Assembly: GCA_025210395.1 (NCBI GenBank)
Contig: JAOARV010000048.1
Coordinates: 62,001-126,000, forward strand
Direction of reading: 5' to 3'
Length of the DNA: 64,000 nt
From: Marinisporobacter sp.
GTDB taxonomy: Bacteria > Bacillota > Clostridia > Peptostreptococcales > Thermotaleaceae
In this document: in pieces, positions 29,390 through 41,261 of the stretch
Layout of the letters: the number at the start of each line of letters is the position of its first letter
How positions within the stretch are numbered: position 1 is the stretch's first letter
Program-made: the position numbers and the translations under genes
The notes under the pieces: model-generated
Database searches by the model: none
What the model was told of the DNA's origin: nothing
The model's input: the letters and a program-made list of their open reading frames with translations, nothing else

Positions 29390-30553
29390 ATGAAAGTAAA
29401 AAGATATATAGCTAATGATGCACAAGAGGCGATGCTAAAGGTGAAGGCTGAATTAGGAGCAAATGCTGTAATTCTTCATTCAAGAAAGATTAAGAGACCT
29501 GGGCTACTTAACTTTTTTAAGAAACCGCTTATAGAGATGGTAGCTGCTGTTGAAGAAAATGAAAAAGACAAAAGATATAGTAGCAAAAGTGAAAATAATG
29601 GAAAAAATGAAAATGATAAAAATCATGAAAAAAAATATGCAGAGAATGTAGAAGGATCTCATAAAATTGATGCTTTAAAAAAGCAAGTAGGAAATATAGA
29701 GAGTTTATTAAATAGTTTTATAGACAAAATGGATGATTATAAAGAAGAGGATGAGCCCAAAAGATCTGTACTATTTGATAAATATTATAATCATCTTATT
29801 GAAAATAATATTGAAAAAAGTATTGCAGAAAAAATCATGAATATAGCAAAAAAGCAAGTTAGCTTTTCAGGTGAAAATGAAGAGGTCATTGCTAAGGCAA
29901 TAAAAATAATTATAAGAGAATATTTAGCAACTCCAAATATTATCAATGAAGATAGTAAAGAGCAGAAAAATATTGTTTTGGTAGGACCTACTGGTGTTGG
30001 AAAAACTACAACTCTTGCCAAGTTAGCTGCTAAATTTGCTATTGGAAAGAATAAATCTGTGGGACTCATTACTGCGGATACCTATAGAATTGCTGCAGTA
30101 GAGCAATTAAGAACTTATAGTGAAATTTTAGATGTACCAATCAAAGTAATATATGAACCAGAAGAAATTCAAGAGGCTATAGAAGGCTTTAGAGACAAAG
30201 ATATTATTCTTATAGATACAGCAGGGCGTAATCATCGCTCCACAGAGCAACTAGAAGAAGTAAGAGAATTAATTAGTTATATCAATAATCCAGATATTTT
30301 TTTAGTAATAAGTGCAACAACTGGGTATAAAGATATTATAAGTATTATAAAATCTTATGATTTTATAAAAGATTATCACCTATTGTTTACAAAATTAGAT
30401 GAAGCAAGTGGACTAGGAAATATATTAAATGCAAAGATTTTAACGAATAAAAAACTTTCCTATGTTACAACAGGACAAAGTGTCCCAGATGATATTGAAA
30501 ATGCAAATTCAGAAAAAATTGCAAATACAATTGTAGGTGAATCCCATGAATGA
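29390..30553 (+). CDS. flhF: Flagellar-placement SRP-type GTPase FlhF
   Basis: A 387-residue FlhF. The N-terminal segment MKVKRYIANDAQEAMLKVKAE is the family signature; a charged linker follows (about residues 60-110). The NG GTPase domain carries P-loop GPTGVGKTTT at about residues 199-208, DTYRIAAVEQLRTY, and DTAGR. FlhF, related to Ffh/FtsY, directs the site and number of flagella together with FlhG. ATG 29390 is preferred because it follows GGTGGTGA; the in-frame GTG at 29381 lies inside flhA. It overlaps flhG by 8 bases. Confidence 0.95.
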   Translation: MKVKRYIANDAQEAMLKVKAELGANAVILHSRKIKRPGLLNFFKKPLIEMVAAVEENEKDKRYSSKSENNGKNENDKNHEKKYAENVEGSHKIDALKKQVGNIESLLNSFIDKMDDYKEEDEPKRSVLFDKYYNHLIENNIEKSIAEKIMNIAKKQVSFSGENEEVIAKAIKIIIREYLATPNIINEDSKEQKNIVLVGPTGVGKTTTLAKLAAKFAIGKNKSVGLITADTYRIAAVEQLRTYSEILDVPIKVIYEPEEIQEAIEGFRDKDIILIDTAGRNHRSTEQLEEVRELISYINNPDIFLVISATTGYKDIISIIKSYDFIKDYHLLFTKLDEASGLGNILNAKILTNKKLSYVTTGQSVPDDIENANSEKIANTIVGESHE

Positions 30554-31466
30554 TCAAGCTAAGAAGTTAAGAGAGATCATCAATAATCTTAAGAAGAAAA
30601 ATGAGATTCAAAGCAATGCCACATCTTCTCAAAATATTACGGATAATGATAATGCAAGGGTCATAACTATTACTAGTGGAAAAGGTGGTGTGGGTAAATC
30701 AAATTTTACCATTAATTTAGCACTAGCACTTAGTAAATTAGGGCATAAAGTTACCATTTTAGATGCCGATTTGGGCTGTGCAAATATCGATGTGATTTTA
30801 GGGATTATTCCTAAATATACATTACTTCATGTGATGAGAAGAGAAAAAACATTAGAAGAGGTTATTGCTAAAGGACCTGAAGGGATCAGGTTAATATCAG
30901 GAGGTTCAGGATTAAGAGAATTAACCGCTTTAACAGAAGAACAGATTAATGATTTAATGAGTAATCTTAGAAGTCTTGGGGAAAATACTGATTTTATTTT
31001 GATTGATACAGGTGCGGGTATTAATCATTCAGTGCTATCGTTTATAGAAGCTGCAAGTGAGATTATATTAGTAACTACACCTGAACCTACATCTATTACA
31101 GATGCTTATGCTGTTCTAAAAAATATTATATTAGACGATGATGAAAAAATAGTAAGAGTTCTTGTCAATAGAGTTGAAAATAATGAAGAAGGCGTAGAAA
31201 TTTTCAACAAATTGAATATGGCATCACAAAAATTTTTAAATATGACGTTGCAAAGGTTAGGATATTTATATGATGACCAGTTAGTTTCTAAATCAGTTAA
31301 ACTACAAAAACCTTTCCTATTAAGCTACCCAAATAGCTTAGTTAGTAAGGGCGTCGAGACAATAGCCTCTAGACTTGTCAATGAATCTAGCGCAGAAATA
31401 TTTGAGGTAAGTGGTTTAAAAAGATTTATCCATAAGTTTGTATATAGTTATAAAAAATCTATATAA
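30546..31466 (+). CDS. flhG: MinD-like flagellar number regulator FlhG
   Basis: A 306-residue MinD/ParA-type ATPase (YlxH, FleN). The deviant Walker A SGKGGVGKSNFTINLALAL is near residues 39-57, and DADLGCANIDVILG follows. FlhG stimulates FlhF GTPase activity and interacts with FliM/FliY to control flagellar number and pattern. A C-terminal amphipathic membrane-targeting helix is plausible (RFIHKFVYSYKKSI). The start at 30546 overlaps flhF (ATGAATGA). Confidence 0.94.
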   Translation: MNDQAKKLREIINNLKKKNEIQSNATSSQNITDNDNARVITITSGKGGVGKSNFTINLALALSKLGHKVTILDADLGCANIDVILGIIPKYTLLHVMRREKTLEEVIAKGPEGIRLISGGSGLRELTALTEEQINDLMSNLRSLGENTDFILIDTGAGINHSVLSFIEAASEIILVTTPEPTSITDAYAVLKNIILDDDEKIVRVLVNRVENNEEGVEIFNKLNMASQKFLNMTLQRLGYLYDDQLVSKSVKLQKPFLLSYPNSLVSKGVETIASRLVNESSAEIFEVSGLKRFIHKFVYSYKKSI

Positions 31467-36870: not shown

Positions 36871-36885
36871 ATGGAGTTATATTGC

Positions 36886-37203
36886 ATGAAAAGTATAAAA
36901 TCCATACCTTATATATTTCTTGTTTTTTCAATAGTTAGTAGCACTATTATAGGTATGCTACAAAATATAAGTTTTAGTGCGTATTTAAAAAGAACAGTTT
37001 GTTTTTATCTTATCATATTTTTTGCGACTAAATATTGCATTAATTATATAATAAAAGCAAAGGAATCATCAAATAATAAAATTGATATGATAATCCCTCC
37101 TGAAGAGATTAAAGTTGGGGCTGATAATAATGAAGGAGAAGAGGAGTTCATGCCTTTAGACTTAGAAAATAATAAAATAACTACAGATATGAACAAATCT
37201 TAG
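36886..37203 (+). CDS. Small membrane protein between cheD and fliA, function unknown
   Basis: A 105-residue protein not recognised by name. Two membrane spans (about residues 5-25 and 32-56) are followed by an acidic, presumably cytoplasmic tail containing IIPPEEIKVGADNNEGEEE and FMPLDLENNKI. The ATG at 36886 has TGGAG 9 bases upstream; an in-frame ATG at 36871 abuts the cheD stop and lacks a site. It lies inside the operon between cheD and fliA, a place where other Clostridia also carry small hypothetical genes, so a motility link is likely but not shown. Confidence 0.75.
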   Translation: MKSIKSIPYIFLVFSIVSSTIIGMLQNISFSAYLKRTVCFYLIIFFATKYCINYIIKAKESSNNKIDMIIPPEEIKVGADNNEGEEEFMPLDLENNKITTDMNKS

Positions 37204-37214
37204 GAGGGATAAAA

Positions 37215-37949
37215 ATGTCCAATATGAATTTGTGGGATCAATACAGGAAAACAAATGATAAAAAAATTAAAGATCAATTGATTGTAAAGTATATAGACCT
37301 AGTAAAAATTATTGCAGGACGATTGTATGCCAATTACAGAAATAATACTGAATTTGAAGATTTAGTTAGCTATGGTATATTTGGGTTGTTAGATGCTATA
37401 GATAAATTTGACCCATCAAAAAATGTTAAATTTGAAACGTATGCCTATATAAGAATAAGAGGAGCAATCATTGACCAATTAAGAACATTAGATTGGATTC
37501 CTAGGTCTGTTAGACAAAAGTATAAAAAGATTGAAGATGCTTATAAAACAATTGAAAATAAATTAGGAAGAAGTGCAAATGATCAAGAAGTAGCCCATGA
37601 ATTAAATATATCTGTGGCGGAACTAAATAGTATGCTTGGGGAAGTACATTCCTTTTCGGTTATTTCATTAGAAGAAAAAATTTCAAACAATGCAAATTTT
37701 ACAATTATGGATGAAGACATAAGTACTGAACCCCAGCAAAGTTTAGAAAAAGAAGAAGTAAAAAAAATACTTTTAGAGTCTTTGAATCAATTAGCAGAAA
37801 GAGAAAAAAAAATTGTTGAGCTTTATTATTACTCAGAATTAACGTATAAAGAAATTTCTGCAATACTAGGTGTTTCTGAATCAAGAATTTCTCAGTTACA
37901 TACCAAGGCAATTATGAAATTAAGAGGAAAATTAGCAAAGGTTTTATAG
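37215..37949 (+). CDS. fliA: RNA polymerase sigma factor for flagellar genes (sigma-D/FliA)
   Basis: A 244-residue sigma-28 family factor. Region 2 includes NTEFEDLVSYGIFGLLDAID and FETYAYIRIRGAIIDQLR, region 3 begins IPRSVRQKYKKIEDAY, and region 4 ends with YKEISAILGVSESRISQLHT, the -35 recognition helix. It directs late motility genes such as flagellin and receptors, which are not in this window. Its own gene is far from the operon promoter, as in Bacillus sigD, where distance limits expression. AGGAGGG lies before the ATG. Confidence 0.96.
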   Translation: MSNMNLWDQYRKTNDKKIKDQLIVKYIDLVKIIAGRLYANYRNNTEFEDLVSYGIFGLLDAIDKFDPSKNVKFETYAYIRIRGAIIDQLRTLDWIPRSVRQKYKKIEDAYKTIENKLGRSANDQEVAHELNISVAELNSMLGEVHSFSVISLEEKISNNANFTIMDEDISTEPQQSLEKEEVKKILLESLNQLAEREKKIVELYYYSELTYKEISAILGVSESRISQLHTKAIMKLRGKLAKVL

Positions 37950-37972: not shown

Positions 37973-39772
37973 ATGGATAAAAAATCCATTATCACAGAAG
38001 GAAAAAGTTTAGAGGAAGCAATTGAAAAGGGATTAAACCTCTTAGACTTAAAACAGGATCATGTTTCTGTGGAAATTATAGAAGAAGGTAAATCTTTTTT
38101 TGGGATTGTAAAAAAATTGTTCAAAGTAAAATTAACTGAAAAAGTGATAGAATGTAAAAAAAATGACGATTCAGAAGAAAATAAAAATGGAAAGTTTGAA
38201 ATAAAGGAACAAAAAGGGGAGTTATGTTTACTGATTACTCCTTCAAAAGAAAACATTGTAAATGTAGAAGAAATTATTTTAGAATTAGAAAAAAGAAAAA
38301 TAAATAATATAGACAGAGAAAAGCTTGAATTAATTTTAAGAGAAAACAAACTATTTACAATAAATATTGAAGAAATTAAAATAACTGACATAATAGATGA
38401 AAAAGTAGAAATTGAAATAGCAAAGGATGATATGAAAGCTTATATGACGATTATTCCTCCAAAGGGAGGAATAAAGCTTGAGAAAGATGATATGGAAAGA
38501 ATTTTAAGAGAGCATCACATTATATATGGGGTAGATGAATCTCTTATTCAGGAAATTATTTTAAAAAAGCAATATAATCAAAAACAATTAATTGCTATAG
38601 GGAAAGAACCTATAAATGGACAAGATGAACAAATAGAATACCACTTCAGTACAGATGATAGAATTAAGCCTCAAATAGATGAAGAAGGGAAGGTTAATTA
38701 TAAAGAAATAGATAAGATCCAATCTGTGAAAAAAGGAGATTGTATAGCAGAAAAAACTTTAGCTACAGATGGTGTTGATGGCATGACCATTAAGGGGAAA
38801 GTATTAAAGGCTAAAGCAGGGAAAAGTATTGGTTTTAAAAAAGGTAAAAATGTAATTGAAACAGAAGATGGATTAAAGCTAATTGCAGATGCAGATGGAC
38901 AGGTAAAACTAGTTGATAATAAAGTAGAGGTGTTACAGGTTTATGAAGTAGCTGGAAATGTTGATCATTCAACAGGCAACATTCATTTTGTTGGATCAGT
39001 TATAGTCAGAGGAAATGTAAGATCTGGATTTACAATAGAATGTTCAGAGGATATAGAGGTTTATGGTGTAGTAGAAGGGGCAACTATTGTTGCTAGTGGA
39101 AATATAGTACTTCACAAGGGTATTCATGGGCAAAATGTAGGAAAATTAATTAGTAAAAAAGATATTATCTCAAAATATATGGAAAGTTGCTATGTACAAG
39201 CTGGCGGAAGTATACAATCAGATGTTATTATGCATTGCAATTTAAAATCTAAAGAATCTATTATGGCATTAGAAAAAAAAGGAATGATTGTTGGCGGAGA
39301 AATACGAGCTAATATGGAAGTGAATGCAAAATGTATTGGTTCACCTATGGCAACTGTTACTAGAATAGAGGTAGGCATTGATCCAGAGATAAAAGAAGAG
39401 TATGAAGGTTTGAAACAGGAATTGGAAGTATTATATAAAAACAAGGATAGTGTCAGAAAAGCTATAGAATTGTTGACAAGAATATCTCAAAAAATTGAAT
39501 TACCGAAGGAAAAACAAGAAATGTTAATCAAATCGAAAAAGACAGAAAAATATTTAAATGAAAAAATAGAAAGTGTCAATACAGCACTTGTTGATTTGCA
39601 AAAGACTCTTCAAGAATTATCACATGGAAGAGTGAATGCTTTATCAGTAATCCATCCAGGTGTAAGGGTTGTTATTGGTAATTCAGTACATCATGTTAGA
39701 GATGAGATTCCATGTGCAACAATTTTAATGGAAAATGGAGAAATAAAGATAGGTCCTTATTTAGGGAAATAA
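37973..39772 (+). CDS. FapA/DUF342 family protein with N-terminal Jag-N domain
   Basis: A 599-residue protein. Residues 1-56 are a Jag_N-like domain (EGKSLEEAIEKGLNLL then EEGKSFFGIVKKLF), the same module found at the start of KhpB/Jag. From about residue 170 to 470 it is a FapA (DUF342) protein with a bactofilin-like right-handed beta helix (GNVDHSTGNIHFVGSVIVRG and following coils), then a coiled coil (about residues 475-570) and a small C-terminal beta domain. FapA-type proteins are described as polymerising, chemotaxis- or envelope-associated scaffolds, but a precise role is not established. It lies directly after fliA, and a similar arrangement recurs in Clostridia. Confidence 0.85.
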   Translation: MDKKSIITEGKSLEEAIEKGLNLLDLKQDHVSVEIIEEGKSFFGIVKKLFKVKLTEKVIECKKNDDSEENKNGKFEIKEQKGELCLLITPSKENIVNVEEIILELEKRKINNIDREKLELILRENKLFTINIEEIKITDIIDEKVEIEIAKDDMKAYMTIIPPKGGIKLEKDDMERILREHHIIYGVDESLIQEIILKKQYNQKQLIAIGKEPINGQDEQIEYHFSTDDRIKPQIDEEGKVNYKEIDKIQSVKKGDCIAEKTLATDGVDGMTIKGKVLKAKAGKSIGFKKGKNVIETEDGLKLIADADGQVKLVDNKVEVLQVYEVAGNVDHSTGNIHFVGSVIVRGNVRSGFTIECSEDIEVYGVVEGATIVASGNIVLHKGIHGQNVGKLISKKDIISKYMESCYVQAGGSIQSDVIMHCNLKSKESIMALEKKGMIVGGEIRANMEVNAKCIGSPMATVTRIEVGIDPEIKEEYEGLKQELEVLYKNKDSVRKAIELLTRISQKIELPKEKQEMLIKSKKTEKYLNEKIESVNTALVDLQKTLQELSHGRVNALSVIHPGVRVVIGNSVHHVRDEIPCATILMENGEIKIGPYLGK

Positions 39773-39787
39773 GGGGAGATGATAGGT

Positions 39788-40117
39788 ATGTCTATAAGAC
39801 CTATAGATTTTCAAGTATTAATGCCTAAAACCCAGCAACAATCACAGGAAAATCAAATTGCTAATAATAGGGCAAGCGTAGATCAAGAAAACCTAATGCA
39901 GCAAAATAAAATAAACACAGAGCATCAACTTAAAAAGGTGAATCAATCTGAGAGTAAGGACCATCCAAATATAAGGGATGAACAAAGTAGTAAGCAAAAA
40001 GGTAATAAAAGACATTTAGAGAAGAGAAAAAAACAGGATGAAAAGGGAAAAGATAAAAAGAACAGTGAAAAAAAAGCTATGAACGGAATTGGAATAAATC
40101 TTGATATAAAAATATAG
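39788..40117 (+). CDS. Small charged protein of the flagellar operon tail, function unknown
   Basis: A 109-residue, very hydrophilic protein. Only the start (MSIRPIDFQVLMPKTQQ) and end (GIGINLDIKI) look ordered; residues 20-95 are Gln/Asn then Lys/Glu-rich and probably disordered or coiled. ATG 39788 is preferred, 9 bases after GGGGAG; the ATG at 39779 overlaps that site. Similar proteins with the same N-terminal motif occur in Clostridia before rpsB as far as I recall, but no function is known to me. It lies between the DUF342 gene and the SwrB-like gene. Confidence 0.7.
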   Translation: MSIRPIDFQVLMPKTQQQSQENQIANNRASVDQENLMQQNKINTEHQLKKVNQSESKDHPNIRDEQSSKQKGNKRHLEKRKKQDEKGKDKKNSEKKAMNGIGINLDIKI

Positions 40118-40135
40118 ACGAATTGGTGAGAGAAT

Positions 40136-40636
40136 ATGGGCGATTATATATTTTTTTTTATAGGTATTATTATTGTAATAATAGCTATTGTGATGCTTCG
40201 AAAAAATACGAGTATGGAAATTATGGAAGAACTTGAACATGCTCAAAGAAAAGATAGGATATTATTAGAAAATATTGACCTAGCAGAAAATATTATAAGA
40301 GAATTAAAAGAAATAAGTGAAGATACTATAAAAACTTTAGATACTAAAACAAATGAGATCTATAAGATGATACAGACATTAGATGAGAAGATAGAAGGAT
40401 ATTCAGTAATGCTACATGAAAAAGAGAATGAGAAAAATGATGAGGGTGTTGTAACGGTTACTTATAAGAGAGAGGTTGAGAATATAAAAGAAGAGGATCA
40501 TACTTCACATCAAAATAATGATAAGAAAAAAATATTACAATTATATAATCAAGGATATACACCTTCCCAAATAGCGAAAAAGCTTGATAAAGGCATTGGG
40601 GAGGTTCAGCTTATATGTAGCCTAAAGAAGAGGTGA
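40136..40636 (+). CDS. DUF6115/SwrB-like membrane coiled-coil protein
   Basis: A 166-residue protein with an N-terminal membrane span (about residues 4-22), a coiled coil (about residues 28-100) and a C-terminal helix-turn-helix-like motif (ILQLYNQGYTPSQIAKKLDK, about residues 133-152). The architecture, length and place (between the sigma-D gene and rpsB) correspond to Bacillus SwrB, which promotes flagellar export gate activation; I match it by position and layout, not by clear sequence identity. The DUF6115 label rests on the C-terminal motif. The HTH-like element is probably not DNA-binding in a membrane-tethered protein, but this is untested. Confidence 0.7.
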   Translation: MGDYIFFFIGIIIVIIAIVMLRKNTSMEIMEELEHAQRKDRILLENIDLAENIIRELKEISEDTIKTLDTKTNEIYKMIQTLDEKIEGYSVMLHEKENEKNDEGVVTVTYKREVENIKEEDHTSHQNNDKKKILQLYNQGYTPSQIAKKLDKGIGEVQLICSLKKR

Positions 40637-40640
40637 TCAC

Positions 40641-41087
40641 TTGAGAAAGGATGTATACATAGGTTTATTTTTAGGCATTGGAATAGGTTTAATATTATCC
40701 TCAGGATTTCATATTATTTTTCATCAAAACCAGAATATTACATATGATGAAGAGTTTATTAAGTCAGAGGCAAGGAAAATAGGAATGATTGACCCAGTAG
40801 AATATTTTGATAAGCAAGAAATGAATAATAACATGAACGAAATAAATACAAAGGAACAAGAAGAAAACAAGTTTATCATTGAAATTCAAAAAGGAGATAG
40901 AAGCGAAGATGTTGCTAGAATATTAAAGGAAAATGACTTGATACAATCAGAAAGACAATTTTTAAATAAAATAAACGAAAGAAAATTAGAAAATAAACTT
41001 AGATGGGGAGAATATGAATTTACATCAAATGATTCTGAAAAGGAGATCATAGATAGAATTGTTAAGGGAGAACATAAAAAGAAGTAA
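40641..41087 (+). CDS. Membrane protein with MltG/YceG LysM-like domain, no lytic domain
   Basis: A 148-residue protein with a TTG start and GAGGTGATC upstream. One N-terminal membrane span (about residues 7-25) is followed by a linker and a domain (about residues 85-145) reading IEIQKGDRSEDVARILKENDLIQSERQFL and GEYEFTSNDSEKEIIDRIVKG. This is the LysM-like regulatory domain at the start of MltG/YceG endolytic transglycosylases; the catalytic domain is absent. It is the last gene of the flagellar operon. It may bind nascent glycan strands near the flagellar site, but this is inference. A terminator follows. Confidence 0.75.
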   Translation: MRKDVYIGLFLGIGIGLILSSGFHIIFHQNQNITYDEEFIKSEARKIGMIDPVEYFDKQEMNNNMNEINTKEQEENKFIIEIQKGDRSEDVARILKENDLIQSERQFLNKINERKLENKLRWGEYEFTSNDSEKEIIDRIVKGEHKKK

Positions 41088-41154
41088 ATTCGATTAGAAA
41101 AGTTAAAAATTAGGAATTGAAAATAGAAAAGCTATCTTATCTTAGTTGATTGAG

Positions 41155-41182
41155 GCTCTCACTTATAGGTGGGAGTTTTATT
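41155..41182 (+). terminator. Terminator at the end of the flagellar operon
   Basis: CTCTCAC (41156-41162) pairs with GTGGGAG (41169-41175) around TTATAG, with one G-U pair, followed by TTTTATTAAT. It ends the 33-kb motility operon before the rpsB promoter. Confidence 0.75.
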
Positions 41183-41261
41183 AATATATTAAAAATTTGT
41201 ATATTTATAGGAACAATGGAAATAATATTGTTGTATCCATATAAATTTATAAAATTTTTTG

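Follow-up and report, generated by a model that had tools for sequence, protein, structure and literature searches.

In a Marinisporobacter sp. (lineage Thermotaleaceae), four plus-strand open reading frames (ORFs) lie directly downstream of sigD, the sigma-28 gene of the flagellar operon (37973-39772, 39779-40117, 40136-40636, and 40641-41087; all positions are those of the window, the whole 64,000-nucleotide stretch that was analyzed, G000:C44:62001-126000). They encode FapA (P0001), a small protein that we call P2 (P0002), a DUF6115 protein (P0003), and a membrane-anchored protein with a LysM-like domain (P0004). The gene set is real, conserved, and linked to flagella, and for the most part it is a sub-module that has already been described. 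We give an even chance to the reading that the distal portion of the flagellar operon, seen here, controls assembly and runs FlgV, sigma-28, FapA, P2, SwrB-type DUF6115 protein, and LysM protein, with the mechanism proposed in the Discussion. The P2 family, the link between SwrB and DUF6115, the LysM-only companion, and a MinC-like stretch of FapA appear to be new.

Results

Occurrence in flagellar genomes

Two samples were searched, one of 59 relatives and one of 149 genomes drawn from across the phylum, with FlhA as the marker of a flagellar genome. The genes for FapA, P2, and the DUF6115 protein occur almost exclusively where FlhA is present. FlhA was found in 43 of the 59 relatives, and full-length FapA (E below 1e-50) occurred in 36 of those 43 versus none of the 16 relatives without FlhA. 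The seven FlhA-positive relatives that lack it are G004 (68% complete), G009, G026, G035, G037, G045, and G046. DUF6115 proteins were present in 30 of the 59 relatives, one of which was FlhA negative (G006, 76% complete). In the phylum draw, where 128 genomes carry FlhA, DUF6115 was detected in 91 of the 128 versus none of the other 21, and P2 was detected in 72 genomes (71/128 with FlhA and 1/21 without); these DUF6115 and P2 counts are lower bounds, since three P2-like proteins missed by the profile search surfaced in loci that were read. FapA was matched at E 1e-20 in 87 of the 149 genomes and was full length in 57, all but one of them among the 128 with FlhA. In the remaining 30 genomes, none of which lacked FlhA, the sole FapA match had an E value from 1e-20 down to about 1e-41, and we did not count these as full length.

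A single FlhA-negative genome of the phylum draw (G081) carries P2 and FapA. Both lie on a 4.1-kb contig together with cheC, cheD, and sigD, so FlhA has probably been lost from this assembly. With the kinship of genomes ignored, Fisher p values across the 149 genomes were 4e-4 for FapA, 7e-6 for P2, and 1.7e-10 for DUF6115. Furthermore, P2 and full-length FapA occurred together in 56 genomes and were adjacent in 55. A preliminary description of this DNA had said that its account would fail if the genes were present in nonflagellated relatives, which did not come true in either sample, or if they were absent from most flagellated ones. At the scale of the phylum, the latter was the case only for FapA (56/128), while P2 (71/128) and DUF6115 (91/128) were found in most.

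Gene order

Neighborhoods were read at 40 loci from relatives and at a further 80 on named genome contigs, which included Alkaliphilus, Natronincola, Ruminiclostridium, Sporomusa, and two Treponema metagenome-assembled genomes. From these 120 loci we dropped 12 that were duplicates or lacked FapA, along with 13 of the 108 FapA loci that had short flanks, which left 95. Directly upstream of FapA was sigD in 93 of the 95; downstream were P2 (88 loci), DUF6115 (80 loci), and the LysM protein (54 loci). At loci without FapA, P2 stood directly behind sigD in 15 of 16 and DUF6115 behind P2 in 13 of 16. Another 20 loci were chosen for having DUF6115 without a P2 profile match: sigD was followed directly by DUF6115 in 16, a previously missed P2 sat between the two in 3, sigD was missing in 1, and the LysM protein came behind DUF6115 in 12 of the 20. 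A match to the DUF6115 profile was obtained in all 40 genomes of a Bacillus-type family. At the 25 loci that were read in this family, rpsB always lay behind the DUF6115 protein, and P2 preceded that protein in 11, at odds with the earlier claim that SwrB alone occupies this place in Bacillus. The order is preserved in Bacilli, Clostridia, and Negativicutes (Sporomusa), as well as in Treponema minus the LysM gene (sigD-FapA-P2-DUF6115 at loci L167 and L176). The co-occurrence check proposed in the preliminary description has thus placed these genes in flagellar genomes, with their order kept.

Two variants were recorded. FapA is separated from sigD at L095 and L097 (genomes G034 and G023), which belong to one family. 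At L102 and L094 (G046 and G053), a LysM-type protein of 212 to 220 amino acids is followed by a protein of 420 to 426 amino acids in place of rpsB.

Protein families

P0003 matches Pfam DUF6115 (E 3.1e-11; 44.2 bits, cutoff of 27), with weak helix-turn-helix (HTH) matches at the C terminus. In Bacillus-type genomes the SwrB position is cheD-sigD-X-rpsB (L248 among the loci), and a hidden Markov model (HMM) of 25 proteins from this position detected P0003 at E 1e-12 and the Treponema proteins at 2.7e-4 (L167) and 0.055 (L176). Two of the Bacillus-type SwrB-position proteins were run against Pfam and both are DUF6115; the B. subtilis control genome also gives a DUF6115 match. Judged by these profiles, the SwrB-position protein of Bacillus and the DUF6115 protein of the window are one family, in a comparison drawn through proteins at the SwrB position and not through the named SwrB of B. 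subtilis, and the label "SwrB-like" given earlier to the third gene is supported. In the available part of PMC4526659, swrB is the final gene of fla/che, its product acts through FliP, and conservation is reported in Bacillus only. The family relation contradicts this last statement, subject to the reservation just given. None of the papers listed by a literature search on DUF6115 contains the term. At another locus (L103:3465-3911), the protein behind sigD has a transmembrane (TM) and HTH appearance with no Pfam match, and is perhaps a diverged DUF6115 protein.

The LysM protein was correctly described as having the LysM-like domain of MltG. P0004 aligns with profile positions 1-66 of 275 in YceG only (E 6.1e-8), ends at residue 148, and in Pfam lacks the lytic (YceG catalytic) domain. 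In its AlphaFold2 (AF2) model the LysM part has a predicted local distance difference test (pLDDT) score above 90, and Foldseek retrieved 4iiw (Lmo1499 YceG; E 2.7e-4, root mean square deviation [rmsd] of 1.0) and 8yoa (MltG; E 0.039). Short YceG/LysM-like proteins in frames of ~150 to 230 amino acids also occur outside flagellar loci.

Between cheD and sigD sits a further gene, unmentioned in the preliminary description. Its product (P0005) has a pair of membrane segments, the second of which opens with Lys-Arg, and an acidic tail with a conserved F.PL[DN][LF] patch, and it fits the FlgV type-1 pattern. In Treponema, the P0005-family HMM detected the two-TM protein that precedes sigD (L176, E 3.7e-5; L167, E 0.011), a protein assigned there to FlgV by position and two-TM form, not by a named record.

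FapA is secure as a family member (Pfam FapA, E 1.9e-74, 251.1 bits, cutoff of 31; FapA_N, E 2.1e-49, 167.7 bits, cutoff of 27; Jag_N, 2e-12). Its AF2 model (pLDDT of 89, predicted template modeling score of 0.64) contains a long antiparallel coiled-coil hairpin. When a profile of 50 FapA sequences was compared with one of 20 MinC sequences, 45 columns that include the RSGQ motif of MinC aligned with a probability of 93.5 and E 2.3e-7; the controls reached at best 0.038 in 30 column shuffles, 0.21 with the reversed profile, and 5.4e-4 in 30 block shuffles. Pfam MinC_C was also found on P0001 at E 4.2e-5, with 23.9 bits against a cutoff of 33.2. In MinC, RSGQ makes the contact with MinD (available part of PMC6803595). 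Within the FapA alignment its glycine alone is invariant (G352, 50/50); position 350 is mostly L, R, or K, and the glutamine is replaced by F or Y (position 353, 50/50). A Foldseek search of solved structures with the whole FapA model gave nothing at E 1e-3 or below and placed MinC at E 3.8. The top row was 3gku, a Jag-like RNA-binding protein, and a second structure search was filled with coiled-coil and generic beta-helix rows that rule nothing out. By profile, the FapA solenoid is similar to the face with which MinC binds MinD, and the operon also encodes the MinD-like FlhG. No paper joining FapA with MinC was found among the matches listed in our literature search. A second FapA paralog of 535 to 586 amino acids is encoded elsewhere in eight FlhA-positive relatives (G042, G041, G014, G024, G016, G019, G030, and G012).

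P2 is conserved at both ends, with MSI[RK]P[IV]D.Q at the N terminus and G..[IL]DI.I at the C terminus, and D109 is invariant in 53 members. Because the family begins MSIRPID, a start at 39788 is more likely than one at 39779. Pfam assigned no family to P0002, and the 53 members gave scattered weak rows, none convincing. P2 thus appears to be a new, unnamed family found in Bacilli, Clostridia, Sporomusa, and Treponema; in a search of the other window proteins for one that ends in a motif of the P2 type, P2 alone was found. YjfB_motility (PF14070) was considered and rejected as its identity, as it did not match P0002 and was missing from the 25 families listed for the 53 members. One P2 C terminus gave a weak YjfB_motility row (E 0.425), and a comparison with the YjfB C-terminal profile aligned just 12 columns (E 0.0013, probability of 18; best of 30 shuffles, 0.034); the resemblance between the two C termini is at most suggestive. 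A YjfB_motility homolog is encoded in the same genome (G000:C12:61331-61492), and copies in relatives end in LG.NIDI, as P2 does.

Layout of the locus

The gaps that lead from sigD through the four ORFs measure 23, 6, 18, and 4 bases. Coordinates and domains bear out the earlier picture of four closely packed genes behind sigD that end at a terminator (Table 1). The hairpin, whose 3' side is U-rich, was revealed by folding and was absent from the output of a simple terminator scan. The ORF 3' of it is presumably rpsB, and we likewise recognized the neighbors che, rpsB, tsf, pyrH, frr, and uppS by their window sequences, without a family search. Hydropathy supports membrane segments in the third and fourth genes only (residues 1-29 of the DUF6115 protein and 4-28 of the LysM protein); the best 19-residue values were 1.24 in FapA and 0.32 in P2, neither of which has a membrane segment. 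The claim that all but one of the proteins are of envelope type is therefore wrong for FapA and P2, leaving two of four, and "envelope module" suits just the DUF6115 and LysM proteins. P0001, P0003, and P0004 had no significant match when their sequences were compared with solved structures.

Table 1. Features of the sigD-distal part of the flagellar operon and of FlhG (window positions)
Feature	Position	Strand	Evidence or remark
FlhG, MinD/ParA-type ATPase, in same operon	30537..31466	+	ParA PF10609 E 2.7e-22; CbiA (MinD/ParA) E 1.4e-15
Candidate FlgV type-1 homolog (P0005)	36871..37203	+	Two membrane segments, directly before sigD
Sigma-28/sigma-D (FliA/WhiG family), sigD	37215..37949	+	TIGR02479 E 3.2e-80
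FapA (P0001): Jag_N, FapA_N, beta-solenoid, MinC_C-like stretch ~333-382, coiled-coil hairpin 471-548	37973..39772	+	Pfam, AF2
P2 (P0002): basic, disordered, conserved ends	39788..40117	+	ORF open from 39779; 39788 start preferred
DUF6115 protein (P0003), SwrB-type: membrane segment at N terminus, coiled coil, HTH-like block at C terminus	40136..40636	+	Pfam, hydropathy, HMM
Membrane-anchored LysM-like domain of MltG/YceG without lytic domain (P0004)	40641..41087, TTG start	+	Pfam, Foldseek, hydropathy
Terminator-like hairpin behind module	41145..41185	+	-16.4 kcal/mol, z -5.45 (folding)

Discussion

Proposed mechanism and alternatives

We propose that the products of this stretch would act on flagellar assembly. 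The DUF6115 protein would be anchored in the membrane, its coiled coil and HTH-like end facing the cytoplasm; like SwrB in B. subtilis, it would favor a state of the basal body that opens the type III export gate (FliP) to hook subunits, which would lead to the release of sigma-28. FlgV would form a ring at the junction of the MS and C rings, as it does in Borrelia (available part of PMC11607428). FapA could be the cytoplasmic scaffold that brings assembly to the site and couples it to position or to a metabolic signal, as with EIIAGlc in Vibrio, while P2, whose conserved ends are joined by a flexible chain, may tether two of the parts. Reaching from membrane to wall, the LysM protein would anchor or time the complex where the rod crosses the peptidoglycan. 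This mechanism draws its support from the genomic linkage, the kept order, the SwrB homology, the presence of FlgV in basal bodies (PMC11607428, same part), and the LysM fold.

Several observations weigh against the proposal. The parts are not obligate partners: G009 has lost FapA while P2, DUF6115, and the LysM protein remain, full-length FapA is absent from 16 of the 72 genomes with P2, and 37 of 128 FlhA-positive genomes have no DUF6115 match. As the parts are separable, action of the four genes as one complex is hypothetical. The LysM domain is common to MltG and to short YceG-like proteins encoded away from flagellar loci, in FlhA-negative genomes among others. In addition, the tie to SwrB runs through SwrB-position proteins and not through the named B. 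subtilis sequence, and no clostridial experiments on these proteins were found.

Three other explanations deserve consideration, each of which we regard as less probable than assembly control. FapA might be the effector of FlhG in a Min-like switch for flagellar number or placement, with FlhG-ATP moving FapA onto or off the membrane and, along with it, the assembly factors P2 and the DUF6115 protein. This is improbable in our estimation, although several observations count in its favor: the match to MinC spans the RSGQ columns and outscores every shuffle and the reversed profile, MinC_C appears on P0001, G352 and F/Y353 are retained throughout, and FlhG is encoded in the same operon. Yet the MinC_C score is below the Pfam cutoff, the R and Q of the contact are not retained, the whole FapA model reaches MinC only at an insignificant level, and FlhG and FlhF are also present in flagellated genomes without FapA. 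A fuller version, to which we assign a still smaller chance, is that a Min-like pair outside the model organisms sets flagellum number and placement, with FlhG acting as MinD and FapA, through a MinC_C-derived face with the invariant G-[FY], as MinC; P2 as tether and the DUF6115 protein would then make the placed basal body export competent, and the LysM protein would be a wall anchor.

It is also conceivable, if rather unlikely, that the operon tail controls sigma-28 output and not structure, such that P2 and the HTH-bearing membrane protein act on sigma-28 or its release and effects on assembly are secondary. The position of P2 next to sigD in 15 of 16 FapA-less loci and the weak HTH matches of P0003 are consistent with this. 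However, a membrane tether holds the HTH-like part, P2 has no convincing Pfam family, and SwrB was found to affect sigma-28 by way of hook completion and export rather than the level of sigma-D (available part of PMC4526659). We are similarly doubtful that the tail is a set of independent accessory genes at the operon end, with flagellar roles for FapA and DUF6115 only and a role in general wall growth for the LysM protein. One-at-a-time loss of the tail genes and the existence of short LysM-only YceG-like proteins outside flagellar loci would be expected under this explanation, but the order is preserved over several classes and reaches Spirochaetota, P2 and DUF6115 track FlhA closely, and the LysM protein is directly behind DUF6115 in 12 of 20 further loci.

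If SwrB, which activates the flagellar export gate of B. subtilis, belongs to a family of Bacillota and spirochetes, then its mechanism becomes testable in many organisms. Within the searches made, P2 is a widely conserved flagellar protein without a named family. A MinC-like face in FapA, if true, would offer a specific starting point for working out how the placement of flagella is controlled by FapA and FlhG.

Comparison with known systems

The module as such is not new. Reference titles connect Vibrio FapA with pole delocalization and HubP recruitment. FapA and its sub-module, which the preliminary description called uncharacterized, are already published in what was available of PMC11607428 and PMC6877527; the latter reports that V. 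vulnificus FapA binds dephosphorylated EIIAGlc. Zamba-Campero et al. (2024) placed FlgV between an FlhF/FlhG sub-module and a sigma-28-FapA-YjfB-TM+HTH sub-module in Bacillota and spirochetes (PMC11607428, available part). The window shares with that account a FlgV-type two-TM protein, sigma-28, FapA, a small protein, and a membrane HTH protein in the same part of the superoperon. It differs in its small protein, P2, for which no YjfB_motility match was obtained, and in the tie drawn here between the TM+HTH protein and SwrB. Neither P2 nor a LysM-only MltG-like protein is named in the available sub-module account, and SwrB and DUF6115 have no occurrence in the main text of the paper. The "YjfB" placed there may be P2. 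YjfB_motility has a C-terminal (L)G.NIDIK[LI] motif that P2 may share, and it differs from P2 in N terminus and length.

The individual proteins compare in a similar way. Like the FapA of Vibrio and Borrelia (PF03961), to which it was likened by description and not by alignment, the window FapA has the name, the flagellar setting, and, by Pfam, FapA_N plus a beta-solenoid; it differs by a Jag_N extension. With the endolytic transglycosylase MltG/YceG, the LysM protein shares a membrane anchor and the LysM-like domain, but the lytic domain is absent. Finally, the DUF6115 protein has in common with SwrB (YlxL) of Bacillus subtilis its place at the operon end behind sigD, an N-terminal membrane segment, and homology to the SwrB-position proteins of a Bacillus-type family, whereas the window operon adds FapA and the LysM gene.

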